This document shows, piece after piece, positions 14,708-56,558 of a stretch of DNA of 64,000 nucleotides. The position numbers and the translations under genes are program-made. The notes under the pieces are model-generated. The model made no database searches. It was not told the origin of the DNA and saw only the letters and a list, made by a program, of their open reading frames with translations. Position 1 is the first letter of the stretch; every line of letters starts with the position of its first letter. Source of the stretch: Blautia sp. An249. Its GTDB lineage: Bacteria > Bacillota > Clostridia > Lachnospirales > Lachnospiraceae. Location of the stretch: contig NZ_NFJL01000001.1 in the NCBI RefSeq assembly GCF_002159835.1, forward strand, positions 186,001 to 250,000, in the 5' to 3' direction.

Positions 14708-14998
14708 ATGATGAGGGGGAACTTTACTCCTGTTACGGGAAAAGACAGAATGATGCAGAAAATCAATGAGGTGAGTTTCGCAGTAAACGATATTCATCTC
14801 TATCTGGATACCCATCCCTGTGATGAAAAGGCGATGGAATTTTTCCGGGAAAATGTAAGAATGCGAAAAGAAGCTCTTTCAGAATATGCACGGATGTACG
14901 GCCCGCTGACCATTGACACAGCAGACGACTGTGCAAGCAGAAGCTGGCAGTGGATACAGCAGCCGTTTCCATGGGAAAAAGAAGGGGGATGTCGTTAA
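14708..14998 (+). CDS. cotJB: spore coat protein CotJB
   Basis: This 96-residue protein has the CotJB family pattern: FAVNDIHLYLDTHP, a central helix with FRENVRMRKEALSEYARMYGPLTI, and a C-terminal tryptophan-rich segment. It begins one base after cotJA and its stop codon overlaps the ATG of cotJC, so the three are translationally linked. An internal ATG at 14711 is equally possible as the start. Assignment follows family and operon context. Confidence 0.9.
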   Translation: MMRGNFTPVTGKDRMMQKINEVSFAVNDIHLYLDTHPCDEKAMEFFRENVRMRKEALSEYARMYGPLTIDTADDCASRSWQWIQQPFPWEKEGGCR

Positions 14999-15201
14999 TG
15001 TGGAATTATGAAAAAAGATTACAGTATCCGGTGAATATTAAAACCCCGAATGCTAAACTGGCCCAGTTCATCATGAGCCAGTATGGCGGTCCGGACGGAG
15101 AGATTGGAGCTTCCATGCGCTACCTGTCCCAGCGGTTTACCATGCCCAACCGTACGGCAATGGGGGTATTAAACGATATAGGAAGATTTTTTACAATATG
15201 A
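14998..15201 (+). CDS. cotJC: CotJC N-terminal piece (gene split by element 1)
   Basis: The first 62 codons are an intact CotJC N-terminus, beginning MWNYEKRLQYPVNIKTPNAK and running to LNDIG. CotJC is a manganese-catalase-like ferritin-fold protein of the spore coat. At 15181-15182 the conserved reading is lost at the core TAGG, and six foreign codons (RFFTI) lead to a stop. The natural next codons, ggt-aca-gag-gaa, are found at 27178-27189. Joined to the pieces at 27180 and 56328 it gives a 211-residue protein. As it stands the product lacks the later metal ligands and should be inactive. Confidence 0.93.
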   Translation: MWNYEKRLQYPVNIKTPNAKLAQFIMSQYGGPDGEIGASMRYLSQRFTMPNRTAMGVLNDIGRFFTI

Positions 15202-15202
15202 C
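15179..15202 (+). other. attL of element 1A
   Basis: cotJC sequence AAACGATA meets the core TAGG (15179-15182) and then foreign sequence AAGATTTTTTACAATATGAC. The distal half of the original site, TAGG followed by TACAGAGGAAC, is at 27176. Confidence 0.75.
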
Positions 15203-15270
15203 GATTTTACCATAAAGGGACAAAGAATCTACATATATATTAAAAAAGAATACCGCCGGAGAGTATGAAA

Positions 15271-15414
15271 ATGGAAGAAAAAAAAGAAAAAATAAAAGAA
15301 GAGAACAGGGAAGAGTTTTACAGACATCTGAAAAAAGGAATCTGCAGGGAGCTTTATGCCGGAGGGTTCCTGACGAAAGAACAGATTTTTGAAATCCTGG
15401 GGGAATCCCTGTGA
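15271..15414 (+). CDS. small charged protein upstream of recombinase (SHOCT-like)
   Basis: This 47-residue, very charged protein (MEEKKEKIKEENREEFYR...) ends with YAGGFLTKEQIFEILGES, which resembles the SHOCT short C-terminal motif. A GGAGAG lies nine bases before the ATG at 15271; an ATG at 15265 is too close to it. Its stop overlaps the GTG of the recombinase (GTGA), so the two are coupled. Small partners next to large serine recombinases can be directionality factors; that role here is only a suggestion. Confidence 0.6.
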   Translation: MEEKKEKIKEENREEFYRHLKKGICRELYAGGFLTKEQIFEILGESL

Positions 15415-17042
15415 AAGTAGCCGCCTATTGCAGAGTTTCGACGGATCAGGAGGATCAGAAGAATTCTCTGAAAAATCAGAAAAAGTATTTTCAGGAATAT
15501 ATTTCCCGGGAAACAGGGTGGGAATTCACCCGGATTTACTATGATGAGGGAATCAGCGGAACGCAGACCCGCAGGAGAAAAGGCTTTTTAGAGATGATAA
15601 AAGAGGGGCAGGAGGGAACGTTCCAATTGGTATTAACCAAGGAGGTAAGCCGTTTTGCCAGAAATACGGTGGACGCTCTGTTTTATACCAGGAAACTGAA
15701 AGAGTGGGGAATCGGAGTGCTTTTTACTCTGGATCATATTGATACCAGAGAACAGGATGGGGAACTTCGCCTGACTCTTATGGCAGGAATCGCTCAGGAA
15801 GAGAGCCGGAAAATATCCCAGAGAGTGAAATGGGGACAGAAAAGGAGTATGGAACAGGGAGTTGTTTTCGGGAGGGAACTGCTGGGGTATGAGCTGGAAA
15901 AGGGACGCCTGCGGATAAAAGAAGAGGAGGCAGAGATTGTCCGGGAGATTTTCTGCAAATACACCATAGAGGGAAAAGGAACGGGACGGATTGCCCGGGA
16001 GCTGGAGGAGGAAGGGTATTCCTCCAAAAGAGGAGCAGGATGGTCAGCAGGCGTCATTGCCAGAATATTGGATAATGAAAAATATGTAGGGGACTTATGT
16101 CAGGGAAAAACCATGACTCCCGATTACCTGACTCATGTAAAAAAGAAGAATCAGGGAGAAGAACCCCTGGTATACCTGAAAGAGCACCATCCCGGAATTA
16201 TCAGCCGCAGTCTGTGGGAACAGACCGGTCAGGAACGGGAAAGACGACGCAGAAACAGCGCCCGGGGAGAAAAGTACAGCGCCCGCTACTGGTGCAGTGG
16301 GAAAATTTACTGTGGAAACTGCGGAAACAGTTATGTGAGCCGGAAAAAGAAGTATGCAAACGGAACCGTCTATCACGGATGGCGGTGTGGATGTCAGGTT
16401 ACAGGGGCGTCTTCCTGTAAAAACCCTTCTGTGAATGAAAAGACATTAAAAGAGGCAGTGTGGTACTGTCTGCATGAACTTGCCCCGCCCAAAGAAAAAC
16501 TGACAAAAGACATCCTGGAACCAATAGAGGGGACCAGGGAAGGACAGAGGAAACAGAGCCAGGGAAACCATCGGAAGGAAACGATACGGGTTTTGCAGGA
16601 GAAAAAACGAAGAACCATTGATTTGGCTCTGGAGGGGATTATCTCTGCAGAAGAGTTAAGGCAGCAGCGCCAGTGGTATGAACAGCAGATAGAGCAGGTT
16701 TACAGGCAGGAAAGGAGCAGGAACCAGGAAACGAAAAAAGAAATACGGGAAGAAAAGCTGAAGGAGATCCTTGATTTCCGGAAGGAGTATGAGTTGCTTT
16801 ACGGAGAGATTCTGGAGAAAGTCACCGTATTCCCCGACCGGATATTACAGATTCAGTTTTGGGGGTTGGAAGCCAGGACGCTGAAAATAGGGCCTCCTAA
16901 GAGAAACGGAGAAACAAAGGTGGAAATACAGGAGAATTTTTGTTATAGTGGAAAGAAAGATGCGGACAGGAAAGTGGAAAGAACCTATGAATCCAAAAGA
17001 GAAAAATCCGGGGCGGGAAGAGCTGGAACTGATTTTAGATAA
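15411..17042 (+). CDS. large serine recombinase of element 1A
   Basis: This 543-residue site-specific recombinase has an N-terminal resolvase domain with catalytic serine S10 in YCRVSTD and the SRFARN and QEESRKISQRVKWGQ helices. A recombinase domain follows, then a zinc ribbon with CGNC and CGC...C near residues 300-340, and a coiled-coil tail. The same layout is found in SpoIVCA, which excises skin from sigK. It starts with GTG (GGGGGA upstream), about 230 bases inside the left att site. Its last 56 bases overlap the next gene. It is the likely enzyme for element 1A. Confidence 0.93.
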   Translation: MKVAAYCRVSTDQEDQKNSLKNQKKYFQEYISRETGWEFTRIYYDEGISGTQTRRRKGFLEMIKEGQEGTFQLVLTKEVSRFARNTVDALFYTRKLKEWGIGVLFTLDHIDTREQDGELRLTLMAGIAQEESRKISQRVKWGQKRSMEQGVVFGRELLGYELEKGRLRIKEEEAEIVREIFCKYTIEGKGTGRIARELEEEGYSSKRGAGWSAGVIARILDNEKYVGDLCQGKTMTPDYLTHVKKKNQGEEPLVYLKEHHPGIISRSLWEQTGQERERRRRNSARGEKYSARYWCSGKIYCGNCGNSYVSRKKKYANGTVYHGWRCGCQVTGASSCKNPSVNEKTLKEAVWYCLHELAPPKEKLTKDILEPIEGTREGQRKQSQGNHRKETIRVLQEKKRRTIDLALEGIISAEELRQQRQWYEQQIEQVYRQERSRNQETKKEIREEKLKEILDFRKEYELLYGEILEKVTVFPDRILQIQFWGLEARTLKIGPPKRNGETKVEIQENFCYSGKKDADRKVERTYESKREKSGAGRAGTDFR

Positions 17043-18252
17043 TTTTTCCCGGGCGACCAAACTCAGCCTTGCAGCAGTCAACACCTATGGAGAACCCTTT
17101 CTTACCAGTACCAGCTATCAGGAGAATTCGTTCTGTCGGTATGTGAAGAAGACCGAAAACGGCAGAGCCAAATGTGAGAAAAGTTACTGCAAAGCATGTA
17201 AGCAGGCTTTGCAGTGGAAGGAACCCTATTATTTCATGTGCCATGCAGGTCTGATTATGTGGGCTCTTCCCCTTGTGGTGGAAGAGACGCTGATCGGAGC
17301 GGTGATGTGCGGTCAGGTTTTATTCTGGGAACCGGATGAGATGTTTTTCAGGCAGCTTGAACGCAGCTTTACAGCGGAGGAAATTCAGAAACTGAGGACG
17401 CTGGCCAAAGATATAAAAGTAATATCTCCATCCGAAAGCGATTCGGCGGCGAAACTTCTGTTTATGGCCGTTCATTATCTCAGCAAGAATGCAGACGCCT
17501 CCCTGAAAGAGCAGAAAAAGCGGATGGAATGGAGAAATGCTTTAATCAGCCGTATCCAAATGAGAAAGGAAAAATTTCAGGATGCGGAATTTGATTTGTC
17601 CGTTTATATTAAAAGAGAACGGCGGTATCTTCAGTATGTCCGGATGGGGAATAAAGAGAAAATTCAGGAAATGCTGCCGCTGCTTTTTACTGATATGGAG
17701 ATTCTAAGCGACTATGAAAGAGAAAAAATCCGGTTCTGGCTGTCAGATTTTGCCGCTTTATCTTCCAGGGCCATTATAGAAGCAGGCGCAGACTGTGAAA
17801 TGGTATTCCGGATTATGGATCAGTATAAGACAGAGCTGAAACGGATGAATACCATCGAAGAGCTGATTGAATACACCTATAAAACCCTTTGCCGCCTTTT
17901 TGAGTATATTTATCTGACAAACAAAGACGATTACATCAGCGTATTGAAAGAAGTGCGAAAATATATAGACATTCATTACAGTGAAAAGCTTTCCATAGAG
18001 GAAATTGCAAAAGAGGTTTATCTGAGCCCCTCTTATTTATGTACGCTGTTTAAAAAGAACGCGGGAAATACGATCCACGATTATATTCTGCGGGTACGGA
18101 TTGAAAAATCTATTGAGTTTATGCAGGATCGGAGTCTGAGTTTGAAGGACATAATGAAAAAGTGCGGGTTCAAAAGCCAGAGCTATTATACCAAAGCCTT
18201 TCGGGAGATGATAGGAGTCACCCCGGGGCAATACCGCAATAAATTTTTGTAG
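16987..18252 (+). CDS. AraC-family regulator with PocR sensory domain
   Basis: This 421-residue regulator has an N-terminal PocR domain (about residues 15-170), recognised by CRYVKKTENGRAKCEKSYCKAC and YYFMCHAGL. Two AraC helix-turn-helix motifs lie at the C-terminus (about 320-420, ending GVTPGQYRNKFL). PocR domains sense small ligands and control cobalamin-linked pathways. Here it sits directly before a corrinoid protein and its methyltransferase and is the likely activator. The start overlaps the recombinase gene; the ATG at 16987 is one choice, with a weak ribosome site. Confidence 0.88.
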   Translation: MNPKEKNPGREELELILDNFSRATKLSLAAVNTYGEPFLTSTSYQENSFCRYVKKTENGRAKCEKSYCKACKQALQWKEPYYFMCHAGLIMWALPLVVEETLIGAVMCGQVLFWEPDEMFFRQLERSFTAEEIQKLRTLAKDIKVISPSESDSAAKLLFMAVHYLSKNADASLKEQKKRMEWRNALISRIQMRKEKFQDAEFDLSVYIKRERRYLQYVRMGNKEKIQEMLPLLFTDMEILSDYEREKIRFWLSDFAALSSRAIIEAGADCEMVFRIMDQYKTELKRMNTIEELIEYTYKTLCRLFEYIYLTNKDDYISVLKEVRKYIDIHYSEKLSIEEIAKEVYLSPSYLCTLFKKNAGNTIHDYILRVRIEKSIEFMQDRSLSLKDIMKKCGFKSQSYYTKAFREMIGVTPGQYRNKFL

Positions 18253-18264
18253 GGATGAACGCGT

Positions 18265-18924
18265 ATGGATATATATGAAGAAATCAGAAGAAATTTATTA
18301 AGAGGAGATACGCAGTACGTTGTGAAACTGGTACAGAAAGCAGTGGCGCTGAGGTATCCTCCAGAGTCAATTTTAAAGGACGGACTGATCCTGGGAGTAG
18401 ATACCCTGGCTTATAAATTCCGAAACTGTGAAGTGTCTGTTCCGGAATCCCTTATGGTAGCCAGAACGCTGAACGCAGGGATTGAAACGCTGAAACCTTA
18501 TCTGGAAAAAGCCGGGAAGAAACAGCATGTGGCAGTTCTGGGCACAGTAGAGGGAGACTTTCACGATATTGGAAAAAACCTGGTACGTATCTATTTATCT
18601 ACTTTGAATATCCAGGTTGTGGATCTGGGAATGGATGTGGGAAAGGAAGAGTTCATTGAGGCTGTGAAAAAGTATGATGCAGAGCTTCTTATGATGTCGG
18701 CACTTCTGCCTACCACCATCGGGGAAATGAAAACAGTAATCGAAGAACTGAAGGACCAGGGTCTCAGAAATAAAGTAGTGGTTTTCGTGGGAGGTATGCC
18801 GGTAACCAAAGAATACGCCCAGGAAATTGGGGCGGATTATTATACCCGGGATGCGATTGAGCTTCGTGACTTGTTAAATACCAGCCTGAATAAAATTCTG
18901 AGAGAAAAATTGAACAAAAAATAG
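18265..18924 (+). CDS. corrinoid (B12-binding) methyltransfer protein
   Basis: This 219-residue protein of the MtbC/MttC type has an N-terminal helical cap (about 1-88) and a C-terminal cobalamin domain. The lower-ligand motif DFHDIG is in VEGDFHDIGKNLV, followed by the GG of VFVGGMP. It carries the methyl group between the substrate-specific MttB-type methyltransferase downstream and a tetrahydrofolate methyltransferase not in this window. It begins 12 bases after the regulator. Confidence 0.93.
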   Translation: MDIYEEIRRNLLRGDTQYVVKLVQKAVALRYPPESILKDGLILGVDTLAYKFRNCEVSVPESLMVARTLNAGIETLKPYLEKAGKKQHVAVLGTVEGDFHDIGKNLVRIYLSTLNIQVVDLGMDVGKEEFIEAVKKYDAELLMMSALLPTTIGEMKTVIEELKDQGLRNKVVVFVGGMPVTKEYAQEIGADYYTRDAIELRDLLNTSLNKILREKLNKK

Positions 18925-18943
18925 AAATATACAGCAATCATGA

Positions 18944-19012
18944 AAAAACCTGTTTTATGCTAGAATGACAGTATCAAAGAAAGATACGTATCAAAAGCAG
19001 AAACGGGTTTTT
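18944..19012 (+). terminator. terminator or attenuator between corrinoid and methyltransferase genes
   Basis: Arms AAAAACCTGTTT (18944-18955) and AAACGGGTTTTT (19001-19012) pair with one G-U, enclosing a smaller GTATC/GATAC hairpin. The T-rich 3' end suggests a partial terminator that could lower expression of the downstream gene. Confidence 0.5.
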
Positions 19013-19046
19013 ACTATTTTAAAAGATAAAAAAGGGAGGTATTTTC

Positions 19047-20486
19047 ATGAGACCAAGTCTGAAATATTTAAGCGATCAGGAAGTAAAAAGAGTACATGAG
19101 AAAGCTTTGGAAATGCTGGAAGATCTGGGGATGAAATTTGAGGGGCAGGAAGCAAGAGATTACTTTGAAAAAGCGGGTGCAAACGTAGAGGGAGATATTG
19201 TAAAGATTCCAAGAAAGATTATCGAAGACGGGCTGAAGACTGTGCCCAAAAGAGAGGAATTTACGTTATACGGAAGAACTCCAGACAAAGATATTCACTT
19301 AAAAGACAGTGTTCCCACTCTGGCGGCTATGACCATGGCAACTAATGTGCTGGATCCCTGGAGCGGAGAGAGACGCAAAGCTACAGATCGGGATCTGGAA
19401 CTGCTTACAAGAGTGATGGAAAGACTGGATACCGTTTCCATGGCAAGCGCACTGATTACTCCTCAGGACGTTCCCATGCAGTCTTCGGACTGGTATACCT
19501 GGGCCACTTCCATCAAGAATACAACGAAACACATCACAGGAGGTGCTGTGGGAAAAGAGGGCGTCCGGGACGCTATCCGGATGGCCAGCCTTGCCATAGG
19601 AAGCGAAGAAGAATTTTACAAACGTCCCTTTATATCCTTCTGGGTACTGACCATGCCGCCCCTTCGTGTGGATGAGAACACATCCAATGTCCTAATGGAA
19701 GCAGCAGTGCATAAAGTGCCGTCAGTAATCAGTTCCGGAGGAATCCTGGGAATGACTTCACCCATGTCAGTGGAAAGCGCGCTGGTACATACCCATGCGG
19801 AAACTCTGGCGTGTATTGCACTGTCACAGCTGGTAAATCCGGGAGCTCCGGTTATCTACTCCAGTTATGTAAGAAGTATGGATATGAAGACGATGTGTAT
19901 TAATATGTCCTCTCCGGAAAGTATTATTATGAAATGCGGCATGGCTCAGTTAGGAGATTATATAGGACTTCCAACCAAGATGCCGGCGAACTTAAGAGAC
20001 GGTAAACTGCTGGATGCCCAGGCCGGATTTGAAACAGGAATGGGAGGACTGGCAGGAGCCTATACCTGTGATTTCATCGTGGCCATGCAGTTGGATATGG
20101 ACATTATGGTAGATTATGCAGATCTGATTTATTCAGATGAATGTATGAAGATTCTCCAGAGAATGGTAAGACCTCTGGATTTCAGCGATGAGACACTGGC
20201 TTATGACAATATGGAAGAAGTAGGACCGGGAAATACTTTCCTGGAGACAGATCATACTTTTGATCATTATCGGGATGAAATCTGGATGCCGCAGGTGATG
20301 GAGAGAGGAACTTACGAAAACTGGGAGGCAAAAGGAAAGAAAGATATTCGCCAGGTATGTCTGGAAAAAGTACAGAAAATTCTTAAAGAAGTGGAAAATG
20401 AGGAACTTTTGCCAAAAGAGGTACGGGACGCTATTGATGAAATTGCGGCAGGATCAGAAGAAAAAGCGAAAAATATCAAACGGTAA
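19047..20486 (+). CDS. MttB-family methylamine/betaine:corrinoid methyltransferase (non-pyrrolysine)
   Basis: This 479-residue TIM-barrel enzyme belongs to the trimethylamine methyltransferase (MttB) superfamily. It reads through without any in-frame amber codon, so it is not the pyrrolysine form. Non-pyrrolysine members known from the family (MtgB, MtpB, MtcB) demethylate glycine betaine, proline betaine or carnitine. The specific quaternary amine here cannot be read from sequence. A GGGAGG precedes the ATG. Partners are the corrinoid protein upstream and the transporter downstream. Confidence 0.9.
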   Translation: MRPSLKYLSDQEVKRVHEKALEMLEDLGMKFEGQEARDYFEKAGANVEGDIVKIPRKIIEDGLKTVPKREEFTLYGRTPDKDIHLKDSVPTLAAMTMATNVLDPWSGERRKATDRDLELLTRVMERLDTVSMASALITPQDVPMQSSDWYTWATSIKNTTKHITGGAVGKEGVRDAIRMASLAIGSEEEFYKRPFISFWVLTMPPLRVDENTSNVLMEAAVHKVPSVISSGGILGMTSPMSVESALVHTHAETLACIALSQLVNPGAPVIYSSYVRSMDMKTMCINMSSPESIIMKCGMAQLGDYIGLPTKMPANLRDGKLLDAQAGFETGMGGLAGAYTCDFIVAMQLDMDIMVDYADLIYSDECMKILQRMVRPLDFSDETLAYDNMEEVGPGNTFLETDHTFDHYRDEIWMPQVMERGTYENWEAKGKKDIRQVCLEKVQKILKEVENEELLPKEVRDAIDEIAAGSEEKAKNIKR

Positions 20487-20536
20487 CAGTTTGTGTGAAA
20501 ACAGATCGAACGGGAAGAAAGCGGGGGATGAATCTT

Positions 20537-21439
20537 ATGAAGGCGAAAGGAAAGACCAGCGGAATCATTGCAATGGCAGTTGTAGTAACTATTTACGGTG
20601 TTTCTTATATTTCCAGAGAAGTCATCAGCAAGTATCTGGAAACCATTGTCATTCTGGGAATCCAGATGACCATTATGGCGATTTTATTTACCGTATATAA
20701 TCTGGTGAAGGGCAACAGTATGAAACTGAAGAAAAAGGACATCCCTTACATTATAGCCTCCGGGCTTTTCGGGACAACCTTTTACCATGGACTGACGATT
20801 TTAAGTATTACCTCCATTGGAGCTACGGTATCTTCCCTTCTTTTCGGATTTGCAGCAGTTTTTGCACTGATTGTGGAGATTCTTCTGTTTCACAGGAAAA
20901 AGACGAAACTGGGGATTCTTAGTATTGTAATTTCTCTGGTAGGAGTTTATATTCTGATGGGTGTGAAATTCAGCGATTTGGCATCTACCAATTTCAAAGG
21001 ATATGCCTTATGCCTGCTTAGCATTATTTCCTGGGTGGTGTACTGTTTTCTGACCGATAAGATTTCAGAAGGATACGAAAAAACAGTGCTGTTAAATTAT
21101 CAGGCTTTTGTGGGAGCGATTACCACCCTTCCGTTTATTCTGCTGTATCCGGTACAGATCGATGTACTGGCGAAACCGGAAGTATTCATGAATTTAATTA
21201 TTCTGGGGATCTTTAACTCCACATTTGCTTATTTCCTGAATATTTATGCCATTAAAAAGATAGGAGTTACCCTGTCTAACCTTATGCTGGATTTCCTGCC
21301 GGTAGTGACCATTCTTATATCGCTGATTTTATATAGGACGATTCCTACCTGGAATCAGATTGTCGGCGGTATTATCATTCTTATCTCGGTTTTCCTTCTG
21401 GACAAAGATCAGAGAAATGTGGAGGCAGAAGCTGCATAG
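20537..21439 (+). CDS. EamA/DMT-family transporter
   Basis: This protein of about 300 residues has ten hydrophobic segments in two EamA repeats, typical of drug/metabolite transporters. Starts are possible at GTG 20495, ATG 20528 and ATG 20537; the last is spaced best from GGGGG. It ends 28 bases before the right att site of element 1A and its terminator lies inside element 1B. Position suggests uptake or efflux of the methylated substrate or its product, which is inference. Confidence 0.85.
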   Translation: MKAKGKTSGIIAMAVVVTIYGVSYISREVISKYLETIVILGIQMTIMAILFTVYNLVKGNSMKLKKKDIPYIIASGLFGTTFYHGLTILSITSIGATVSSLLFGFAAVFALIVEILLFHRKKTKLGILSIVISLVGVYILMGVKFSDLASTNFKGYALCLLSIISWVVYCFLTDKISEGYEKTVLLNYQAFVGAITTLPFILLYPVQIDVLAKPEVFMNLIILGIFNSTFAYFLNIYAIKKIGVTLSNLMLDFLPVVTILISLILYRTIPTWNQIVGGIIILISVFLLDKDQRNVEAEAA

Positions 21440-47854: not shown

Positions 47855-50290
47855 TCATGCTTCGCCCACTTCCTCCGGCTTCGTCGTCATTACACGGTAA
47901 AGCTCCGTGTCCTTCGGGAAGCGGTCTACAAAGGGCAGCACCACGTTCCCATAGAAGATAAGCCCCTCGCCCGCTTCGGTGTGGGTAACGTACTTCATCT
48001 GCTGCGGGGAAATGCCTAGCTGCCTTGCAAGGATAGCCCGGTCGCCCTGCGCCTGATTGAGCATGAGGACAAAATCGCTGTTTTCAAAGATGTTCTCCAC
48101 TTCCCGGCTTGCCAGAAGGTCTTTCACGTTCTGCGTGATAGCTGTCGGTATGCCGCCCCATTTCCGAAAACGCTTCCAGATTTCTACGGAATAGGCGGCG
48201 GTCTGTTCCTCTTTCAAAAGCAAGTGAAATTCGTCCATGTAGTAGCGCGTCGCTTTTTTCTCTGCCCGGTTTACGGTCACGCGGTTCCATACCTGGTCTT
48301 GCACAATGAGCATACCTAACTTTTTGAGCTGCTTCCCAAGCTGCTTAATGTCAAAGCAGACAAGGCGGTTGTTCAGCTCCACGTTCGTCCTGTGGTTGAA
48401 CACGTTAAGACTGCCGGAAACATAAAGCTCCAATGCCGCCGCAATCCGCGCCGCTTCCGGCTCCGGCTGCTTCAAAAGTTCGTCGTAAAGGTCGCCAAGG
48501 ATAGGCATTTTCGCCGGGTCGGGGTCAGCAAGAAACGGTCGGTACACATTCCTTACAGCCCGGTCAATGACGGTCTTATCGACAGGCTGCAATCCCTCCT
48601 TGCCGCCAATGACAAGCTCGCAGAGGGAAAGGATAAAGTCGCTTTTCAGTGCAAGGGGGTTGTCGTCCTCGCTGTAATTGAGGTTTATATCCATAGGGTT
48701 TACATACTGGGGCTTGCCGTCCATGCCTTTCCCCGCCGGGGAGAGCCGCACTACCTGTCCGTTGAGCCGCTGCACAAGGGAGAAGTATTCCGCTTCCGGG
48801 TCGCAGATGATAATGTCGTCGTCGGTAATGAGGAACGCATTTGTCATTTCCCGTTTTGCCGCAAAGGATTTCCCGCTCCCCGGCGTTCCCAAGATAAGCC
48901 CGTTCGGGTTTTTGAGCTGCTTCCGGTCGCAGAGTATCATGTTATTGGAAAGTGCGTTCAGTCCGTAGTACAGTGCTTCCCCGGTCTGGAAAAGCTCCTG
49001 CGTGATAAAGGGAATGAAAATCGCAGTGCTGCTCGTCGTCAAGCCCCTATGGATAGGGACAAGGTTCTCGCCCAGTGGGACGCTGCTCATCAAGCCTGCT
49101 TCCTGCTGATAGTCAAGCCGGGTAAGGGCGCAGTTATATTTCTGTGCGATACCCGCCGCCGCGAAAATGTCATTTTCCAGTTTCCGCTTCGTGTCTGCCA
49201 TGTTTACCACAAGGAACGTCAAGAGGAACATTCTTTCATTCCTGCTCTGTAAATCCTGCAAGAGATTTTTCGCTTCGCTGCCGAACGTGGCAAGGTCGGA
49301 CGGGATTATATCCATGTCATACCCGGAACGGACGGCTTTTTTCTGTTCCTCAATCTTCATCTTGTCAAGGTCTGTGATTTTCCGCTTAATGGTCTTTATG
49401 GCTTCCGTCTGGTCGATACTGTGGATATGTAAGTTTACAATCACGCCCGTTTCCAAGTCCAGAATGTCGGCAAGCATACGGTCGTTCAGTTCCGGCGCAA
49501 GGATTTCAAGGAAGCTAACCGCACCGATTTTACGCCCCATGCGGAAATACCTGCCCTCCCCGAACCGGAAAGAGGACGGGGCGATAAAGTCCTTTGTGGT
49601 AAGCCCTGCCGGGGCAAGCCAGTCAAAAGAGAAGGAAAACGGCTCCCCGTCCGGGTGGAATACCCCATGCAGCACCTTTAACCGTTCCTGCCCGTTTAGG
49701 GGGTGTGCCGATACCCCAAGCACTTTGAAATTGTTGAGTATGTCGGTTTCAATACGGGCAAGGCGGGATTTTGCCGCCGCCGGATTGTCAGCTTCAATAG
49801 AAAATGTGATGTATTTGTGCTTCACAAGCCCGTTGTTCCCTTTGGAGAGCTGCTTTTTCAGCATACCCGCATACTCGCTGCGGATAGAATTGAAAGCGTC
49901 GTCCTGCGGTGGTATGTCAATGGCTTTTTCCGCTTCCTCCCGCTGTGTGCCTTGATTGATAAAGGAAAGCTGCACGCTTACGCTTGCGTCAAAGTAGTTG
50001 AGGAAATCGCACCAGTTTTCAAAAATGGCGGTCTTGTCGTCGCTGCCTGCAAGCTGATAGTTTATATCCTCAAACGCCACGCTTTTTGAATACTTCTTAT
50101 CCGTTACCCGGCAGATACCGTCCGGGTACATCTGCAAGTAGGGAATGGTCTGCTGCGCGGTGTGGGCTTTTCCGTCGCCCTTTGCCTGTCTTATAATGCT
50201 TTCAATCTGTTTCCTTTCAGCGCGGGTCAGCTTGTGTTTTCCCTTTGTGGGGGCGGCTGCCCGCGCCTGTGCTGCCTGTTTTTTTGACAA
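47855..50290 (-). CDS. VirB4-like conjugation ATPase
   Basis: This protein of about 811 residues is the ATPase that drives the type IV secretion channel. Walker A GTPGSGKSF lies in the C-terminal half near residue 475, and a Walker B-like MDEFHLLL further on. A TTG at 50290, nine bases after AAGGAGG, is the best start; a TTG seven codons earlier (50311) precedes that ribosome site. It overlaps the PrgI gene by 74 bases. Confidence 0.94.
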   Translation of the reverse strand: MSKKQAAQARAAAPTKGKHKLTRAERKQIESIIRQAKGDGKAHTAQQTIPYLQMYPDGICRVTDKKYSKSVAFEDINYQLAGSDDKTAIFENWCDFLNYFDASVSVQLSFINQGTQREEAEKAIDIPPQDDAFNSIRSEYAGMLKKQLSKGNNGLVKHKYITFSIEADNPAAAKSRLARIETDILNNFKVLGVSAHPLNGQERLKVLHGVFHPDGEPFSFSFDWLAPAGLTTKDFIAPSSFRFGEGRYFRMGRKIGAVSFLEILAPELNDRMLADILDLETGVIVNLHIHSIDQTEAIKTIKRKITDLDKMKIEEQKKAVRSGYDMDIIPSDLATFGSEAKNLLQDLQSRNERMFLLTFLVVNMADTKRKLENDIFAAAGIAQKYNCALTRLDYQQEAGLMSSVPLGENLVPIHRGLTTSSTAIFIPFITQELFQTGEALYYGLNALSNNMILCDRKQLKNPNGLILGTPGSGKSFAAKREMTNAFLITDDDIIICDPEAEYFSLVQRLNGQVVRLSPAGKGMDGKPQYVNPMDINLNYSEDDNPLALKSDFILSLCELVIGGKEGLQPVDKTVIDRAVRNVYRPFLADPDPAKMPILGDLYDELLKQPEPEAARIAAALELYVSGSLNVFNHRTNVELNNRLVCFDIKQLGKQLKKLGMLIVQDQVWNRVTVNRAEKKATRYYMDEFHLLLKEEQTAAYSVEIWKRFRKWGGIPTAITQNVKDLLASREVENIFENSDFVLMLNQAQGDRAILARQLGISPQQMKYVTHTEAGEGLIFYGNVVLPFVDRFPKDTELYRVMTTKPEEVGEA

Positions 50291-50642
50291 TCGCTGATAC
50301 CTCCTTTTCAAGTTTTCTCTGCCGTTCCAAGACGGCGTATAGGTTTTCCGTCCGGTAGGGGCGTTCCTTTGGACGGATAAACTGGGTCTGTATGATGTTT
50401 TTTACAATCACTTCAAGGGGCTGCCCGTGTTTCTCATACATGGCAAAGAGAAAGCAGGGCAGCATGACGACAATCATAGCCATAGCTGCAAGGCTCGTCC
50501 CTGCGCTGTCCTTGAGTAAAAAGAAAAGCGGCAAGCCTACGCCCAAGGCTGCCGCAAAACAAATGAGCTGCCGCTTCGTAAGGTTGAAAGCGACTTTTGT
50601 TTTGACTTTGGATAGGTCTTTCGGTACAGGTACATACGCCAA
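50217..50642 (-). CDS. PrgI-family membrane protein (VirB3-like)
   Basis: This 141-residue protein has an N-terminal PrgI signature (AYVPVPKDLSKVKTKVAFNLTKRQ), two membrane helices (FAAALGVGLPLFFLL; SLAAMAMIVVMLPCFLFAMY) and a soluble tail. It takes the VirB3 position next to VirB4. It starts with TTG after AAAGGAGG. The 165 bases upstream contain no convincing gene. Confidence 0.9.
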   Translation of the reverse strand: MAYVPVPKDLSKVKTKVAFNLTKRQLICFAAALGVGLPLFFLLKDSAGTSLAAMAMIVVMLPCFLFAMYEKHGQPLEVIVKNIIQTQFIRPKERPYRTENLYAVLERQRKLEKEVSAIVKKTGSTGAGSRPHKGKTQADPR

Positions 50643-50806
50643 GTGAAAACCTCCTTTCGTGGTTGGTGTATGAAATTCCCATAAGGGGCAGTCAAGGCAA
50701 AGGTCAGACTATGCCCTTTGCCGACATACAGGATATGGGATATATCCGCGTCAAGGTCGGGTTGTATTTTGCTTCGCAAAATCTCCACCCTGCCCTTGAC
50801 ACGCCG

Positions 50807-51676
50807 CTAATGTGCATTAAAAATCGACTTTGCAAGTGCGCCGGATTTGAATAGGGAAAAGCAGAGAATGACCGTATAGGCTGCAATAGAGAATATCGCG
50901 CTGTGTAGGTTGTCTGCGATAATCATGTCGTTTACAAGGACGGCATAAATGCCGACGCATATCATAATGAGGAACCCTTGAAAGCCAAGGGCGAACAGCC
51001 CTTTTAGGTAGTTGTTCCCTATCTGTCCCCATTCCCGGTTTGTCATGGTTGCGAATGGGATAGGCGATACCGAACAGTAAAGGTAAATTTCAATCATTCT
51101 GCCGTAGAGGATAACCGTTATCAGTACGGACATGATTTTCATGCACAAGCTCACAAGGCTTGTTTCAAGCATGAGTAAGAGAAGTTCGGGGATTTCCATT
51201 CCTTCAAGCCCCTCCTGCATGGAAGCAAGGGCTTCGGCAGCGTCGATAGCCGTATCGCTGCCGATAACCCCCGCCGCGCCGGAAACAATATGCTGCGCCA
51301 TGTCAAAGACTGCCATAGTGATGTCAAAGGTATGCGTTACCAGAAAGACGGCAACGAACGCTTTGAAAAACCACTTGAAAAACATAAATGTGTCAACGTC
51401 ATGCAGATTGTTCTTTTCCGTTACCATGCTGATAAGCTCCACACATAGGACATAGGTAATGACAAGCCCCGCAATGGGGACGATTACATTCTCCGAAAGG
51501 TTCTGTATCATGGAGAAGATATTCGCGTTCCACCCCTGCGGGGTCTTGCCTACCTCGTTTGCGATAGTGCCTACCTTTTCGTTTACGTCCCCGAACATAG
51601 TTGACAGATTACCGTTAATGGCTCCGATTAAGATACCCTTTATCCATTCGTTAATCGCGTCAAGTATGCTCTGCAT
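50807..51676 (-). CDS. VirB6/TrbL-like conjugal transfer membrane protein
   Basis: This 289-residue protein has about six hydrophobic segments and the family pattern EWGQIGNNYLKGLFALGFQGFLIM near the C-terminus. It is the polytopic channel component (CD1112-type) of Gram-positive type IV systems. An AGGAG precedes the ATG. It follows the Maff2 gene by 19 bases and precedes the PrgI and VirB4 genes. Confidence 0.9.
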   Translation of the reverse strand: MQSILDAINEWIKGILIGAINGNLSTMFGDVNEKVGTIANEVGKTPQGWNANIFSMIQNLSENVIVPIAGLVITYVLCVELISMVTEKNNLHDVDTFMFFKWFFKAFVAVFLVTHTFDITMAVFDMAQHIVSGAAGVIGSDTAIDAAEALASMQEGLEGMEIPELLLLMLETSLVSLCMKIMSVLITVILYGRMIEIYLYCSVSPIPFATMTNREWGQIGNNYLKGLFALGFQGFLIMICVGIYAVLVNDMIIADNLHSAIFSIAAYTVILCFSLFKSGALAKSIFNAH

Positions 51677-51695
51677 AGGCGGCTACTCCTGCGGC

Positions 51696-51911
51696 TTATC
51701 CGAAAAGCCCGGTAAGCTGCGGTACAAGGAGCATACCGATAAGGGCAACGCCGCCGCCCGCCATGAGCTGTTTCATACCCTGTGATTTCGCGCCGGGGTT
51801 GTCGTTGCCGTAACCTTCCAAGAGGTTAATCACGCCCCAGATACCAAGTCCGGCTCCCAGTGCGATAACAAGGGTCTGCAAAACTTCTACTGCGCTGTTG
51901 AAAAATTCCAT
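51696..51911 (-). CDS. Maff2-family small membrane protein
   Basis: This 71-residue protein has two membrane helices (VLQTLVIALGAGLGIWGVINLL; QLMAGGGVALIGMLLVPQLTGLFG) joined by a short glycine/asparagine loop. Maff2 proteins have the size and topology of VirB2-like pilins and always precede the VirB6-like gene. An AAAGGAG site lies before the ATG. The 185 bases upstream hold a GC-rich inverted repeat and no gene. Confidence 0.9.
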   Translation of the reverse strand: MEFFNSAVEVLQTLVIALGAGLGIWGVINLLEGYGNDNPGAKSQGMKQLMAGGGVALIGMLLVPQLTGLFG

Positions 51912-52098
51912 AAAGTTCTCCTTTCCTGCCGCGATAGCGGCTGCCCGAAAAAGGGCATAAAAAACGGCGGTCAGTTTTGGTAACTGCCGCGGTCATAAGT
52001 CCCCGCGCCGCCTAAATGTCTGCGGCGCAGCGGTATTCAGTTGTAAGTATGGGGAACATGGGTTTTCCCGGTAGGCGCGCGTATCATGTAACCAATAT

Positions 52099-52281
52099 TT
52101 ACAGTTGCGCTAATCCCTCCTTTCCCTGTGTCCGTTCTCTGTAATAGCGGTCATAGCTTTCCAGAAAACGCTGCTTGATTTCTTCCTCTTTCTGTGCCTG
52201 TTCAAGCGCATAGTCAATCAGCCAACGTATAGCTTCTTCAAGCCTGCGCTTTGCTACTTTCTTTCTGATACGTCTGTTCAT
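52099..52281 (-). CDS. small basic helical protein
   Basis: This 60-residue, highly charged helical protein (MNRRIRKKVAKRRLEEAIRWL...) has its start overlapping the previous gene's stop by four bases. I recognise no family. Its place between VirD4 and the VirB genes suggests a minor transfer function. Confidence 0.6.
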   Translation of the reverse strand: MNRRIRKKVAKRRLEEAIRWLIDYALEQAQKEEEIKQRFLESYDRYYRERTQGKEGLAQL

Positions 52282-52415
52282 GGTTTGACCTTTCTTGCAT
52301 AAAATTGCTCAAACAGTTTAACAAGCTCCTGCATTTCCCGCCGCTTCCGTTCGTCGGCAAGGGATATGACTTTCTTTTTGTGGTCTGCGGTTTTTGTCTC
52401 GGTTCGCTTAATCAT
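52278..52415 (-). CDS. small basic protein downstream of VirD4
   Basis: This 45-residue basic protein (MIKRTETKTADHKKKVISLADERKRREM...) has AGGAGG about ten bases before the ATG at 52415. It overlaps the VirD4 stop by eight bases and the next gene by four, so translation is coupled throughout. No family is recognised. Confidence 0.6.
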   Translation of the reverse strand: MIKRTETKTADHKKKVISLADERKRREMQELVKLFEQFYARKVKP

Positions 52416-54234
52416 TTCCCTTGTCCTCCTGCAAATCTGTTTCGCTGATTTCGTAACAGTCAAAAAGCTCGTCCGGCTTTACGATTGCGGGGCGGCGTTT
52501 CATGTATCGTTCCACATCAAAGGTATTTTTCTTGTCGTAGTCGGCAAGGTATTTATAGTTCGGGTGCTTTGTAATGTCGTACTTATCCGAAAAGAACGGG
52601 CGCACACCCCGTAGCTGCAAGATACATTTCCCGCCGTCCATGACGGCGATTTCGTCCTGTGTCATAAGCTCCTTGCCTAACTTCTGGTAGTTCAGCCCGT
52701 GGGACTGCTCCCGTCCTCTGGTTTCGGAAGTGTTGAAGCTGTCAATGGTTTCTTTCCCCAAAAGCTCCGACATTTCTTTCAGCGTGGTTTTCTCCTTGCC
52801 GCCAAGGAAAAGGGTGGTGTCGCAGTTGCCGACTATGGTATCGGCGTTGTCCTTATAGATTGCCTTTAGCTGCGACTGGCTCTGCAAGATGATACAAGCG
52901 GAGATTTCCCTACTCCTTATGGTAGCGATTAACTTCTCAAACTTTGGTATCTGTCCGATATTGGCAAACTCGTCCAGTAAACAGCGCACATGGACGGGCA
53001 GCCGCCCGCTGTACTCGTCGTCGGCTTTATCGCATAACAGGTTGAAAAGCTGCGTGTAAAGGATAGATACGATAAAGTTAAAGGTGTCGTCGGTGTCGCT
53101 GATGATAACGAACAGTGCCGTCTTGCGGTCGCCCAGGGTGTCAAGCTCCATTTCGTCGGTTTCCAGAAGTTCACGCAGTTCCCGTATGTCAAAGGGGGCA
53201 AGCCGCGCCCCGCAGCTTATGAGGATTGAGGAACGTGTCTTGCCCGCGCTCAACAGGAATTTCTTGTACTGCCGGACGGCAAAATGCTCCGGGTCTTTTT
53301 CTTCCAGACGCTCAAACATGAGGTCAACCGGGGACTGAAATTCCGGGTCGTCCTCGCGGGCTTCCGACGCATTTATCATTTCAAGCAGCGTCGTGAAGTT
53401 CTTTTCGTCCTCTGGGGCTTCATACCAGATATAGCCGATAAGGGCGCAGTAAAAGAGCCGTTCGGACTTTACCCAGAAATCCTCCCCGGATTTTTCCCCG
53501 TCGCCTTTGGTATTGGCGATTATGGTATTTACCAGTTTCAGAATATCCTTTTCGTTGCGGATATAGGCGAACGGGTTATAGTGCATACTTTTCTTGAAGT
53601 TTATCGTATTCAGTACCTTTATCCGGTATCCGCTGCGCTGCAAGAGCTTCCCGCACTCTACAAGGACAGTCCCTTTCGGGTCAGTCACGATATAGCTCAC
53701 GGGGATAGCATTTTCCCCGTTTTTGGAGCCGCCTGCGGAGCATTGCATAAGGTTCGGCTTTACGAAAAACCTTGTCTTACCGGAACCGGAGCCACCGATT
53801 ACAAGGACGTTTTTATTCCTTGCGTACTTTGGCTGCTTCGGGCGGCTGTTCATGGTAAGCCGTTCCGTCTGGGTCAGAATGATGTTGTTCTGGAATACCG
53901 GGTCGATATAAGGCTTTATGTCCTCGGCTGTCCCCCAACGGGCAGAGCCGTATTCCATGCCTTTCCGGTACTTCTTCGCGTTCTTGCCTTTGAAATAGAC
54001 AATCAGCCGGATAAGAACCGCCCCCGCTGCGCCGATAAGCAAGTCCATAGGGTGTAAGCTCGGCGCGGCGTTTGAAAAGGCTGCGGAAAATCCCGTCCCA
54101 AGGGAAAGCAGCTTTTCCGACAGGTCAGCCCCCGGCGACAGCCGGAACGCCTGCGCCGCCTTGTCAAAGAGCCAGACAAAGAGTAGATAGGGAATATTCG
54201 GGATAATCAGCTTTTTCAAGTCTATGTTGTTCAA
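52408..54234 (-). CDS. VirD4/TraG-type coupling protein
   Basis: This 608-residue protein is the type IV coupling protein that feeds the relaxase-DNA complex into the channel. Two N-terminal membrane helices are followed by Walker A GGSGSGKT at 147-154 and Walker B-like VRCLLDEFANIG. It starts with TTG, and its start overlaps the PcfB gene by four bases. PcfB next to VirD4 is the standard pair in these elements. Confidence 0.95.
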   Translation of the reverse strand: MNNIDLKKLIIPNIPYLLFVWLFDKAAQAFRLSPGADLSEKLLSLGTGFSAAFSNAAPSLHPMDLLIGAAGAVLIRLIVYFKGKNAKKYRKGMEYGSARWGTAEDIKPYIDPVFQNNIILTQTERLTMNSRPKQPKYARNKNVLVIGGSGSGKTRFFVKPNLMQCSAGGSKNGENAIPVSYIVTDPKGTVLVECGKLLQRSGYRIKVLNTINFKKSMHYNPFAYIRNEKDILKLVNTIIANTKGDGEKSGEDFWVKSERLFYCALIGYIWYEAPEDEKNFTTLLEMINASEAREDDPEFQSPVDLMFERLEEKDPEHFAVRQYKKFLLSAGKTRSSILISCGARLAPFDIRELRELLETDEMELDTLGDRKTALFVIISDTDDTFNFIVSILYTQLFNLLCDKADDEYSGRLPVHVRCLLDEFANIGQIPKFEKLIATIRSREISACIILQSQSQLKAIYKDNADTIVGNCDTTLFLGGKEKTTLKEMSELLGKETIDSFNTSETRGREQSHGLNYQKLGKELMTQDEIAVMDGGKCILQLRGVRPFFSDKYDITKHPNYKYLADYDKKNTFDVERYMKRRPAIVKPDELFDCYEISETDLQEDKGND

Positions 54235-54713
54235 CGGTCAAGCCCCCTTTCTTTGTTCTTGACTTTCTCCCGGTTCGCATTAAGCTGCTTCGCCTTATCC
54301 CGGAAAACGGCTAACGTCTTTCGGATAGAGGGCTTTTGTTCCCGTGAGAGCTTCTTTGCGGAAAACTCCTTAAAGGCTGCGGTCAGCGCGTCAGCGTCCC
54401 GCGCCTTAAAGAAAACAAGGTACCGGGGCGGGTTTTCCGTCGCGTCCTTTTTCAGCGCAAAGTCAATCCCGTATTTTTTCGCGGTACTTTCAAAGGCTTT
54501 GATATTGTCCTTCGTGATTTCGATATTGGAAACGCCTGCGTTCTGCTTCATAAGCTGCTTTAGGGTCTGCCTGCCGTGGGGCATTTGCCGCTTGTTTACC
54601 TGCTTCTTTACCTGTGAGAGAAAGAATTTCATGGATTTTTGCAGCACTTCCGCAGACAGCTTCCCGGTCTTGATTGACAGGGCAATCACTTTTTCATTGA
54701 CTTCCTCCTGCAA
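54231..54713 (-). CDS. PcfB-family protein
   Basis: This 160-residue soluble protein is like PcfB of pCF10, which bridges the relaxosome to the coupling protein. The family core is KSMKFFLSQVKKQ and YGIDFALKKDATENPPRYLVFFKARDADALTAAFKEF. It starts with TTG seven bases after AAAGGAGG and has the basic IRKTLAVFRDKAKQL tail. Confidence 0.9.
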   Translation of the reverse strand: MQEEVNEKVIALSIKTGKLSAEVLQKSMKFFLSQVKKQVNKRQMPHGRQTLKQLMKQNAGVSNIEITKDNIKAFESTAKKYGIDFALKKDATENPPRYLVFFKARDADALTAAFKEFSAKKLSREQKPSIRKTLAVFRDKAKQLNANREKVKNKERGLDR

Positions 54714-54798
54714 TTATCGTCCTCCTTTCGCAAAAATCTGTTTCCGGGCAGAAAGAAAGGGCAGCCGTTTCCCGGTTGCCCTGTGTCTGCCGCTTTCC

Positions 54799-55017
54799 TT
54801 AAATCCGCACTCTAAGCCCGTTCAAGTCCTCGGCGCGTACGCCTACCAGATACCAGTTCTGTCCGTACTCCATACGGGTCGGCTTCCATTTCCCCCTTAC
54901 GAACACTTCCAGACAGTCGCTGCAATGCAAGCCCCCGTAGTAGTCGGAAAGGTCAAAGCGAATGTCGTAACGGTCGGTCAGTTCGTCAAATACCAATGCT
55001 CCGGTTCTCTGTGCCAT
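54799..55017 (-). CDS. DUF5348-family protein
   Basis: This 72-residue protein, MAQRTGALVFDELTDRYDIRFDLSDYY...YLVGVRAEDLNGLRVRI, fits the small DUF5348 family of conjugative elements. An AGGAGG precedes the ATG at 55017. It sits between the replication protein and PcfB. Function is unknown. Confidence 0.82.
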   Translation of the reverse strand: MAQRTGALVFDELTDRYDIRFDLSDYYGGLHCSDCLEVFVRGKWKPTRMEYGQNWYLVGVRAEDLNGLRVRI

Positions 55018-55039
55018 AAAAAATCCTCCTTGTGTTGTT

Positions 55040-56038
55040 CTAAAGGCTTTCGCCCTCGTTGCATGAATAATAGTCCGGGTCGCCAAACTGGGGCTTTCGC
55101 GGAGCCAGTGCGCCGCTTGCCATGTCGTGGGCGACAAGGGAAGTGTAGTAATTGCCGATAGTGGACGGTGCGTTGAACAGTGCCGCCCGTAGGTACTGCT
55201 TGATATTGCGGATTTTCGTGGTGTTCTCCCGCATACAGTCAAGGACGAACCGGATATGTTCGCTTTCCAGTTTCATAAACTTTGACTTTACAAGCTCTGC
55301 CGGGTAGTCGTCCCCGGCGATACGGATTGTCCTGCGCCTTGTGCAGACCGTTTCAAGGATAAGGTCAATGATTTCATTTATCCGGTCATGGTCGTAGGGC
55401 ATATCCTGTTTGAGAATGTCATAGCAGATATTGTCCTTGATGATTTCCTCATATACCCGGTATGCGTCGTTCGGTTCCTTTCGTTTCCGTTCCCCGGCTG
55501 CGCCTGCGCTGCCGTTGGCTCCTGCCGCGTCCTCGAAAGGAGAGGGGTTAGGGGAATGGATTGGAATGGAATGGGTACTTTGTGTATCTGTATTTGGTTT
55601 TTCTTTTTTTGATAGATTAGTCTTTTGTTCTTCTTTAATTATTTGCATTGGATTTTCCGACGTCGGATTTCCCGTTGTCGGATTTTCCAATACCGGATTA
55701 CCCGCTGTTGGATTTTCCAATATCGGCTTTTCCAACTCCGGGGGCTGCGGCTGCTCGTAAATGGTGTACTCAATGGCGGTCATTTTGCCTTTCTCATCGC
55801 GTCCCTGCCGCCTTGTGATATATCCGGCTTTTTCAAGCTCCCAGACGGCGGTACGGATAGCGTCGATACTTTCCCGGTTGATATGGGACAGCCCCGCAAG
55901 GGTATAGTCCCAATCTTCGGGAAGTGAGAGCATTTGCGACAACAAGCCCTTTGCTTTCAAGGTCAGCTCCTTGTTGCGTAAGTGGTGGTTGCTCATTACG
56001 GTATATCCTGTGTTCCGTTCCACTCTGAAAACTGCCAT
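55040..56038 (-). CDS. replication initiator-like winged-helix protein (DUF6017)
   Basis: This 332-residue protein has an N-terminal RepA_N/DnaD-like winged helix (MAVFRVERNTGYTVMSNHHLRN...), a low-complexity linker with tandem ENPTxGNP repeats (about 108-135) and a C-terminal DUF6017 domain with WxxxK-like helices. It probably starts replication of the excised circle. It is the first gene of the minus-strand transfer operon and its promoter region holds copy 2 of the 112-base repeat. Confidence 0.87.
   Translation of the reverse strand: MAVFRVERNTGYTVMSNHHLRNKELTLKAKGLLSQMLSLPEDWDYTLAGLSHINRESIDAIRTAVWELEKAGYITRRQGRDEKGKMTAIEYTIYEQPQPPELEKPILENPTAGNPVLENPTTGNPTSENPMQIIKEEQKTNLSKKEKPNTDTQSTHSIPIHSPNPSPFEDAAGANGSAGAAGERKRKEPNDAYRVYEEIIKDNICYDILKQDMPYDHDRINEIIDLILETVCTRRRTIRIAGDDYPAELVKSKFMKLESEHIRFVLDCMRENTTKIRNIKQYLRAALFNAPSTIGNYYTSLVAHDMASGALAPRKPQFGDPDYYSCNEGESL
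55648..55740 (-). repeat. tandem degenerate 24-base repeats
   Basis: About four copies of a unit coding ENPTxGNP, seen on the plus strand as GGATTT(T)CC spaced by about 12 bases, form the linker of the replication protein. Copy number could vary between strains. Confidence 0.6.
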
Positions 56039-56066
56039 AGCTTATCAGCTCCTTTGCTGTGGATTT

Positions 56067-56178
56067 GTTACGCAGTAGAACGCGGATTTTAAGGGGAAAG
56101 GTATCTTTCCTTTGCTTCCCCGGTTTCGCGCTCTGGAAGCCTTATATATCAAAGCTCTTTCTGCCCCTACCGCGTAAC
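56067..56178 (+). repeat. 112-bp repeat, copy 2
   Basis: It starts GTTACGCAGTAGAA and ends CTACCGCGTAAC. The ends match copy 1 at 36601-36712 while the middle has diverged. It lies upstream of the replication gene and 147 bases from attR. Confidence 0.65.
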
Positions 56179-56304
56179 ATGAGGGCATTAAAAAAGCGGC
56201 GTTCCTGTTCTTCCGGGTGGGAAGTGGGAAACGCCGTCTTTGCGGTTCAATATTCAGTTTTAGTGTGTGTGAAAGCAGCTTGTCCTATCTGTTCTACATG
56301 ATAT

Positions 56305-56345
56305 GTTGTTCTTTCACAGTTGCAGCAGAACAAAAAGCCAGATCC
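56305..56345. other. attR of element 2
   Basis: Element sequence with GTTGTTCTT (56305-56313) meets the core GCAGA (56325-56329), then cotJC codons ACAAAAAGCC. Counting the core here rather than at 56322 gives the canonical LAAEQKAR reading and centres the inverted motifs. Confidence 0.75.
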
Positions 56346-56558
56346 ACCTACGACAATATTCTGCGTGTGGTAAAAGATATTCCGGAAATCGCAGATCCCA
56401 TTAAATTTTTACGGGCAAGGGAAATCGTCCATTTCCAGAGATTCGGTGAAGCCCTCAGAACCGTACAGGAACAGTTGGATGCAAAGAACTTCTATGCCTT
56501 TAACCCAAGCTTTGACAATCCCTGTATGGCAAGCTGCAGTCCGGGAAATAAAAATTAA
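56328..56558 (+). CDS. cotJC: CotJC C-terminal piece
   Basis: The 76 codons from GAA at 56328 encode EQKARSTYDNILRVVKDI through REIVHFQRFGEALRTVQEQL to the natural stop. They include the last two metal-ligand sites, the glutamate of EQKAR and the histidine of REIVH. There is no own start or ribosome site. It completes the 211-residue CotJC when joined to 14998-15182 and 27180-27399. Confidence 0.93.
   Translation, partial: EQKARSTYDNILRVVKDIPEIADPIKFLRAREIVHFQRFGEALRTVQEQLDAKNFYAFNPSFDNPCMASCSPGNKN

Follow-up and report, generated by a model that had tools for sequence, protein, structure and literature searches.

Three recombinase-bearing elements interrupt the sporulation gene cotJC of Blautia sp. 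An249 at cut sites shared with many Clostridia

In the genome of Blautia sp. An249 the sporulation gene cotJC, which belongs to the manganese (Mn) catalase family and stands for the spore-coat catalase, is interrupted by three elements, all of which carry a large serine recombinase (LSR) of their own. The arrangement lies in a stretch of 64,000 nucleotides (nt), here called the window, that corresponds to bases 186001-250000 of contig 1 of a 3.94-Mb genome assembled in 68 contigs (99.91 % complete, contamination estimate 3.2 %). Programmed excision in the mother cell, which would rebuild cotJC, is the best explanation of the arrangement and, in our judgement, a probable one. The finding matters beyond one strain: 77 of the 250 cotJC-bearing genomes in a sample of the family are without a full-length copy among the matches listed, and a single gene can be cut by several elements at once.

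One reading frame and three elements

The three cotJC pieces lie where the first-pass annotation of this DNA had placed them (Table 1). Fused at two short cores, TAGG (shared at 15179-15182 and 27176-27179) and GCAGA (27397-27401 and 56325-56329), they form the single open frame of 211 codons that it had described. The genes cotJA and cotJB stand directly upstream of piece 1, as in a cotJABC operon. Pieces 1, 2 and 3 match the Pfam Mn_catalase profile over positions 1-63, 61-150 and 147-198 (E 7.0e-15, 3.2e-11 and 1.2e-6), and these are the only matches in the genome. A second intact cotJC, which the annotation had named as an outcome that would speak against its reading, was looked for with this profile throughout the 3.94-Mb, 99.91 %-complete genome; none was found and the candidate is rejected. 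The annotation had also proposed a search of related genomes for an uninterrupted gene. The empty sites predicted here align without gaps to six of six intact Blautia-type loci examined (37-45/60 and 44-50/60 bases identical), and the nearest intact named cotJC loci are from Blautia, the best at 92 % identity.

Two elements had originally been proposed; there are three. The first insert consists of two tandem elements at one cut site, as indicated by an inner inverted repeat (21468-21499 and 27146-27177) and a hybrid attachment (att)-like sequence. A single first element of 12 kb was rejected on the strength of these two features and of the third LSR, w2, which is ~45 % identical to w1. The arms of the elements resemble inverted repeats around the core. 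The LSR genes at 15411 and 27431 lie 228 and 31 bases from a junction, within the distance of about 250 bases first reported. All three elements share features of sporulation gene-intervening elements: they lie inside a sporulation gene, carry their own recombinase (of predicted activity) beside a precise att site, and would leave a restored frame on removal. Element 2 in addition has the integrase, relaxase, coupling protein and VirB4-type ATPase that define an integrative conjugative element. Its LSR, w3, is 99.6 % identical to one in another genus (G175; genomes and loci are given below by handles beginning with G and L), so element 2 has moved recently. The cargo of element 1b comprises a TipAS-type regulator, a DUF2268 gene and an AbiEii gene, the last with an AbiEi_4 match below threshold. 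No phage structural gene was found among the Pfam-scanned open reading frames (ORFs) of the elements, a scan that skipped small ORFs and did not extend to PHROGs.

Table 1. Features of the cotJC region, in window coordinates (aa, amino acids)
Feature	Position	Strand	Basis or remark
σK-like box 5' of cotJA, AC-N16/18-CATAAAATA	14379..14407	+	pattern match only; putative function
cotJA	14410..14706	+	Pfam CotJA, E 8e-18
cotJB	14708..14998	+	Pfam CotJB, E 8.2e-30
cotJC piece 1, residues 1 to ~61	14998..15182	+	core TAGG at end, site B
Element 1a, ~6.3 kb	15183..21467		left junction seen; right arm and hybrid att by GTCAT motif equidistant from core; predicted boundary
σE-like box ATA-N17-CATA, element 1a	15212..15240	+	pattern match
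49-aa ORF overlapping start of LSR w1, candidate directionality factor	15265..15414	+	no Pfam or NCBIfam match
LSR w1	15411..17042	+	Resolvase, Recombinase and Zn_ribbon_recom domains
Element 1a cargo: PocR/AraC regulator, B12-binding protein, MTTB-family methyltransferase, EamA transporter	16948..21439	+	
Hybrid att-like sequence between elements 1a and 1b	21446..21470		
LSR w2	21447..23231	-	3' end crosses 1a/1b boundary by ~20 bases
Element 1b, ~5.7 kb, arms 21468-21499 and 27146-27177	21468..27179		inverted repeat I2, 81 %
39-aa ORF upstream of LSR w2, candidate directionality factor	23267..23386	-	
σE-like box ATA-N17-CATACATT, element 1b	23485..23512	-	pattern match
cotJC piece 2, residues ~62-134	27180..27399	+	site B to site C
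Element 2, ~28.9 kb, integrative conjugative element	27400..56327		site C; junctions and conjugation genes
LSR w3	27431..28990	-	orthologues at site C in relatives
48-aa ORF conserved upstream of site-C LSRs, candidate directionality factor	29060..29206	-	no Pfam or NCBIfam match
σE-like box ATA-N17-CATATAGT, element 2	29238..29265	-	pattern match
Relaxase, element 2	34205..35551		
TraG-type ATPase, element 2	47855..50311		
Coupling protein, element 2	52408..54234		
cotJC piece 3, residues ~135-211 and stop codon	56328..56558	+	

Cut sites and their recombinases across Clostridia

Cuts in cotJC recur at four positions: site A (GGP|DGE), site B (DIG|TEELAHLE), site C (DLAA|EQKAR) and site D (REIVHFQRFGEA|L). 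In an alignment to solved catalases, all four fall on motifs that we take to be those of the metal ligands. The cotJC family is present in 43 of 64 genomes of a genus sample, many with the gene in pieces, in 250 of 396 genomes of a family sample (the other 146 have no PF05067 match) and in 193 of 293 genomes of a class sample. Eighty-five of the 250 family genomes were chosen by eye as having no strong full-length match (best E weaker than ~1e-41), and 80 were re-listed, leaving out G109, G171, G208, G254 and G319. Among the matches listed, 77 of the 80 lack a full-length cotJC, and in 76 of these 77 a piece starts or ends at site A, B or C (31, 41 and 15 genomes), G091 being the sole exception; boundaries at two or more sites occur in 10, and both sides of at least one cut in 59, where some of the one-sided cuts may reflect contig ends. 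These counts are too low, because genomes cut only at site D were counted as full length. The left side of site D is found in loci of G010, G034, G169, G282, G292, G353 and G365. Both sides are present in Blautia sp. XA-2221, with core TTCGGTGAAGC around an insert of ~8.7 kb whose LSR ends ~90 bases from the left core.

The same cuts extend beyond the family. From the class sample, 32 genomes outside the family that had only partial matches, in at least two places, were chosen by eye; in 23 a cut at site A, B or C is visible from both sides, likewise by eye, six (G510, G542, G643, G658, G693 and G704) are frameshift-like or ill-fitting, and G509, G575 and G700 are ambiguous. In G580, from another family of Clostridia, cotJC is in four pieces, cut at A, B and C. 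Because the same positions recur in many genera, the cuts are not the work of chance.

Each site has its own recombinases. A w3-type LSR was found in all seven site-C loci first compared (65-92 % identical). Across the 396 family genomes, w3-like LSRs occur in 23 (24 matches), and a cotJC piece ending at site C lies in the flank of 21 of these 24 loci; the exceptions are L075 at a contig start, L078 inside the element of G283, and L095, a 48 % relative. Of the 21 matches to w2, 12 are accompanied by a cotJC piece within a flank of ~1.5 kb. A tree of 47 LSRs places those of site A (11) in one clade, those of site C (8) in one and those of site B (14) in two, and 14 other LSRs of the An249 genome fall outside the cotJC clades; the site labels require 4 changes on the tree against a shuffled mean of 26.2. 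The cotJC LSR clades are therefore site-specific. The site-D LSR, ~24 % identical to the other cotJC LSRs, was left out of the tree. Judged by LSR position, site-C elements occur in either orientation.

Several individual loci deserve mention. Small cotJC elements (L034, L041, L056 and L064) carry serine dehydratase subunits, a Na/Pi cotransporter, LrgB and LD-carboxypeptidase as cargo. A 1.57-kb site-B insert in G354 (L054) encodes a stand-alone Spo0A_C-domain protein (887-1222, 111 aa, E 4.7e-31) and a truncated LSR, and has seemingly lost its right att sequence. The site-C element of G283 (L070) contains two w3-type LSR copies side by side, one intact and one broken, and the broken copy has a σE-like box to itself. 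Six public viral contigs in IMG/VR (L322-L327) hold a w3-type LSR and a cotJC piece, and given these contigs some site-C elements may be prophages. The 23.9-kb record L332 (OY725852.1), filed as a circular Subdoligranulum variabile plasmid, was considered as an excised circle and rejected, as it carries a cotJC 3' piece; it also has an LSR and the box, and may be a fragment of a chromosome.

Constraint on the cut gene and a conserved box before the recombinases

Mapped residue by residue, 44 split cotJC genes contain no stop codon in the gene part. Three stops flagged among split genes are junction overhang or the natural gene end, and the genes of G282 and G292 end early because they are cut at site D. 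Outside these 44, a stop interrupts the aligned part of the G165 5' piece, in a genome that carries an intact copy as well. Decay of the pieces in related strains, which the first-pass annotation had set down as a reason to abandon its reading, is not the rule, although G165 and some broken LSRs depart from it.

The ratio of nonsynonymous to synonymous substitution (dN/dS, ω) points to purifying selection. Pairs of genomes cut at the same site give values of 0.00-0.05, with dS and dN of 0.15 and 0 (G072/G344), 0.95 and 0.015 (G160/G398), 0.98 and 0.025 (G051/G031) and 1.12 and 0.050 (G152/G393). In three of the four pairs the elements are homologous and comparably diverged (LSR dS 0.08, 1.45 and saturated), so that the cut most simply predates the split of the species; G160 and G398 have no common element ORF in the stretches taken. 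Comparisons of split with intact genes within a genus give ω of 0.005-0.094 in nine of the ten rows with usable dS, the tenth (0.23) being a paralogue, and the five intact pairs of one genus with usable dS give 0.028-0.072; saturated dS leaves 9 of 19 split-intact and 5 of 10 intact rows with little information, several others are near saturation, and one mate, G169, is itself cut at site D. Even in G354, where the LSR is truncated, the gene is still constrained (ω 0.020).

In 16 of 17 site-C loci the LSR is closely preceded by a conserved small ORF (42-75 aa as called), and in 16 of 16 the pair ATA-N17-CATA (N16 in one) stands 44-60 nt before this ORF amid diverged surroundings. Seven of seven further loci also have the box, giving 23 of 23 site-C loci tested (ATA-N16/17-CATA), a number that includes near copies (L075 and the window; L081 and L082; L085, L087 and L086) and so does not count independent loci. 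Of the w3-type loci outside the 23, L069 has ATA-N17-CATA and L095 (48 % identical) only an N15 form; L096 and L097 are partial loci, and L074, L078 and L092-L094 are duplicates. An unbiased scan of all 3-mer/4-mer dyads with gaps of 10-25 ranked the ATA/CATA pair top, in 14 of 15 site-C loci (L075 was excluded as a near copy of the window). The box is also present in four of six IMG/VR loci flanking a cotJC piece and in one Oscillospiraceae record. Within the An249 genome, all three cotJC LSRs have the N17 form in the 450 nt before them, versus one of 19 other LSR rows; the N16 form precedes one more of these 19. Taken together, the dyad scan, the hold-out loci and the own-genome control reject chance as the origin of the site-C box.

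The scanned element loci contain 13 occurrences of an extended form of the box, ATAnnRnACAR...CATA, always beside an LSR or small ORF of the cotJC-element kind. Its RNACAR core resembles what we take, from the B. subtilis consensus, to be a SpoIIID site, which we offer as a lead only. The spoIVA gene of this genome has ATA-N16-CATA at -50. In C. difficile the -35 element is ATA for σE and AC for σK (PMC3789822, cited, like all papers given here by PMC number, from excerpts), and the directionality factor of the skin element depends on σE and SpoIIID (PMC5025042). Site-A elements (L038, L040, L043, L046, L049, L064 and L067) share a small ORF of ~46-59 aa (as called) that lies away from the LSR and is a candidate for another directionality factor; the box before it is clear only in L064.

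Programmed excision and its alternatives

These observations suggest the following course of events. In the mother cell, σE would drive expression of the small protein and the LSR from one operon, and each element would be excised by its own LSR. The rebuilt cotJABC would be transcribed later, from the σK-like promoter, a delay that would leave excision time to finish, and the spore would inherit the uncut elements. The elements may use cotJC as a safe harbour, in the form of DNA that is conserved at metal-ligand codons and needed only in a dying cell. Recognition of the box by σE, a directionality role for the small ORF, excision itself and its confinement to the mother cell are inferences. 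For the order of events, cotJC-type operons of C. difficile depend on σK (PMC3789822). The broader proposition is that across Clostridia cotJC is a developmentally spliced gene, in which several unrelated recombinase lineages, each settled in one stretch of metal-ligand codons and at up to three sites at once, are cut out under σE-type control in the mother cell, so that the coat catalase would exist only as a somatic rearrangement; on this we stand evenly divided.

A number of results weigh against programmed excision. No excised junction or circle was seen. Nor was an empty site of the same species; the best database protein is 92 % identical to the joined product, and the 90 % clustering could hide a closer one. 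Some relatives have broken or truncated LSRs (L036, L054, L060 and L065) or LSRs with stops (L305, L313 and L319). Median ω is 0.196 for 19 split-intact pairs, nine of them with G160, versus 0.132 for 39 intact pairs, and G008 has ω of ~0.12 versus ~0.02 for its intact neighbours. The box is absent from all 11 site-A LSRs and only partly present at site B: it occurs in 8 of 13 B2 loci (with 420 nt upstream at hand), in three of five B1 loci and, in inconsistent position, in three of seven B3 loci. No ATA-N16-18-CATA lies within 200 nt of cotJA. The extended box is not enriched genome-wide (8 matches versus 6 in a reversed control), and the seven other genome-wide matches are not shown to precede sporulation genes. 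Finally, B. subtilis cotJC is listed under σE (PMC3416734), which does not fit later transcription by σK.

Alternatively, cotJC could simply be an integration hot spot, a dispensable gene whose conserved motifs are targeted by LSR elements, with gene loss as the outcome and open pieces as a mark of recent insertion. The conjugative element 2 is a recent arrival, several relatives have broken LSRs, 146 of the 396 family genomes have no PF05067 match, and C. difficile mutants of two cotJC-type genes show little coat defect (PMC11222575). Against a hot spot stand dN/dS of 0.00-0.05 in pairs that share a cut and whose elements have diverged, the absence of stops from the gene part of 44 split genes and the mother-cell-like box before the LSR operon, and we regard it as unlikely. 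We hold it more doubtful still that excision is real but non-developmental, happening at random or on conjugation in enough cells to keep the gene functional in the population. In C. botulinum a fraction of cells had lost the yin element from its site at every time examined (PMC10747680), conjugation genes are present in element 2 and the site-A LSRs are without the σE-like box; yet the site-C box is kept while the sequence around it diverges, and the small elements L034, L037, L041 and L073 have no conjugation gene among the few ORFs examined. An assembly artefact or a mis-binning of unrelated pieces might be suspected in a draft of 68 contigs with a contamination estimate of 3.2 %, but is scarcely credible here: a single contig holds every piece, the att-like arms are precise, and the same kind of cuts is found in single-contig genomes (e.g. 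G062, G297, G329, G388, G485, G563 and G604). For programmed excision in the mother cell, the multi-element, skin-like reading of the first-pass annotation has gained from the open frames of 44 split genes, purifying selection, site-specific LSR clades and σE-like boxes; its element count did not stand.

Excision of an element from a gene during terminal differentiation has precedents. In heterocysts the fdxN element is excised developmentally by the serine recombinase XisF, in a terminal cell. The LSRs w1-w3 match the XisF model at 112, 117 and 93 bits, far below its NCBIfam cut-off of 375, and are not XisF members. Close in kind is the skin element in sigK (SpoIVCA in B. subtilis; CD1231 with the directionality factor CD1234 in C. 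difficile), likewise a serine-recombinase element in a mother-cell gene with a precise core. The directionality factor of skin is under σE-type control, and a σE-like box precedes the candidate factor here; CD1231, however, is constitutive, whereas here a single σE-like promoter seems to serve both the LSR and the small ORF (PMC5025042 for skin). Moreover, cotJC is a different gene, holds several elements at once and has no prophage genes among the ORFs annotated here. The gin element in gerE of B. cereus ATCC10987 likewise sits in a sporulation gene, carries several serine recombinases and is not a prophage (PMC5595907), but gin is one element with three recombinases while cotJC holds three separate elements at two sites, two of them in tandem. 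SP-beta in spsM, vfbin in spoVFB, vrin in spoVR and yin in yabG are mobile elements that excise precisely from sporulation genes (PMC4191935, PMC10747680); these are prophages or prophage-like, one element per gene. In the excerpts, the sporulation genes named as excision targets are sigK, spsM, spoVFB, spoVR, gerE and yabG, with one element each, and cotJC is absent from them. No title or abstract listed in searches of the open PMC literature, a scope that takes in neither subscription papers nor preprints, describes an interrupted cotJC. Developmental excision from a sporulation gene is already known; what is new is the target gene, how many elements and sites a single gene can hold, and how widely the cuts occur among Clostridia.

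Were excision programmed, multi-step DNA splicing would be routine in the mother cells of common gut bacteria, and spore-coat annotation in these genomes would be systematically wrong. The elements would also provide a ready panel of recombinase/att pairs that differ in specificity, together with candidate directionality factors. It would further become testable why sporulation genes are met by mobile elements so often: the dying cell may be a safe place for excision.

Two further features of this genome were noted. It holds ~20 LSR genes (22 PF07508 matches), by impression an unusually heavy load. Directly after cotJC, on the opposite strand (56640-57935 in the window), lies a gene for an ATPase with AAA_14 and DUF4143 domains.

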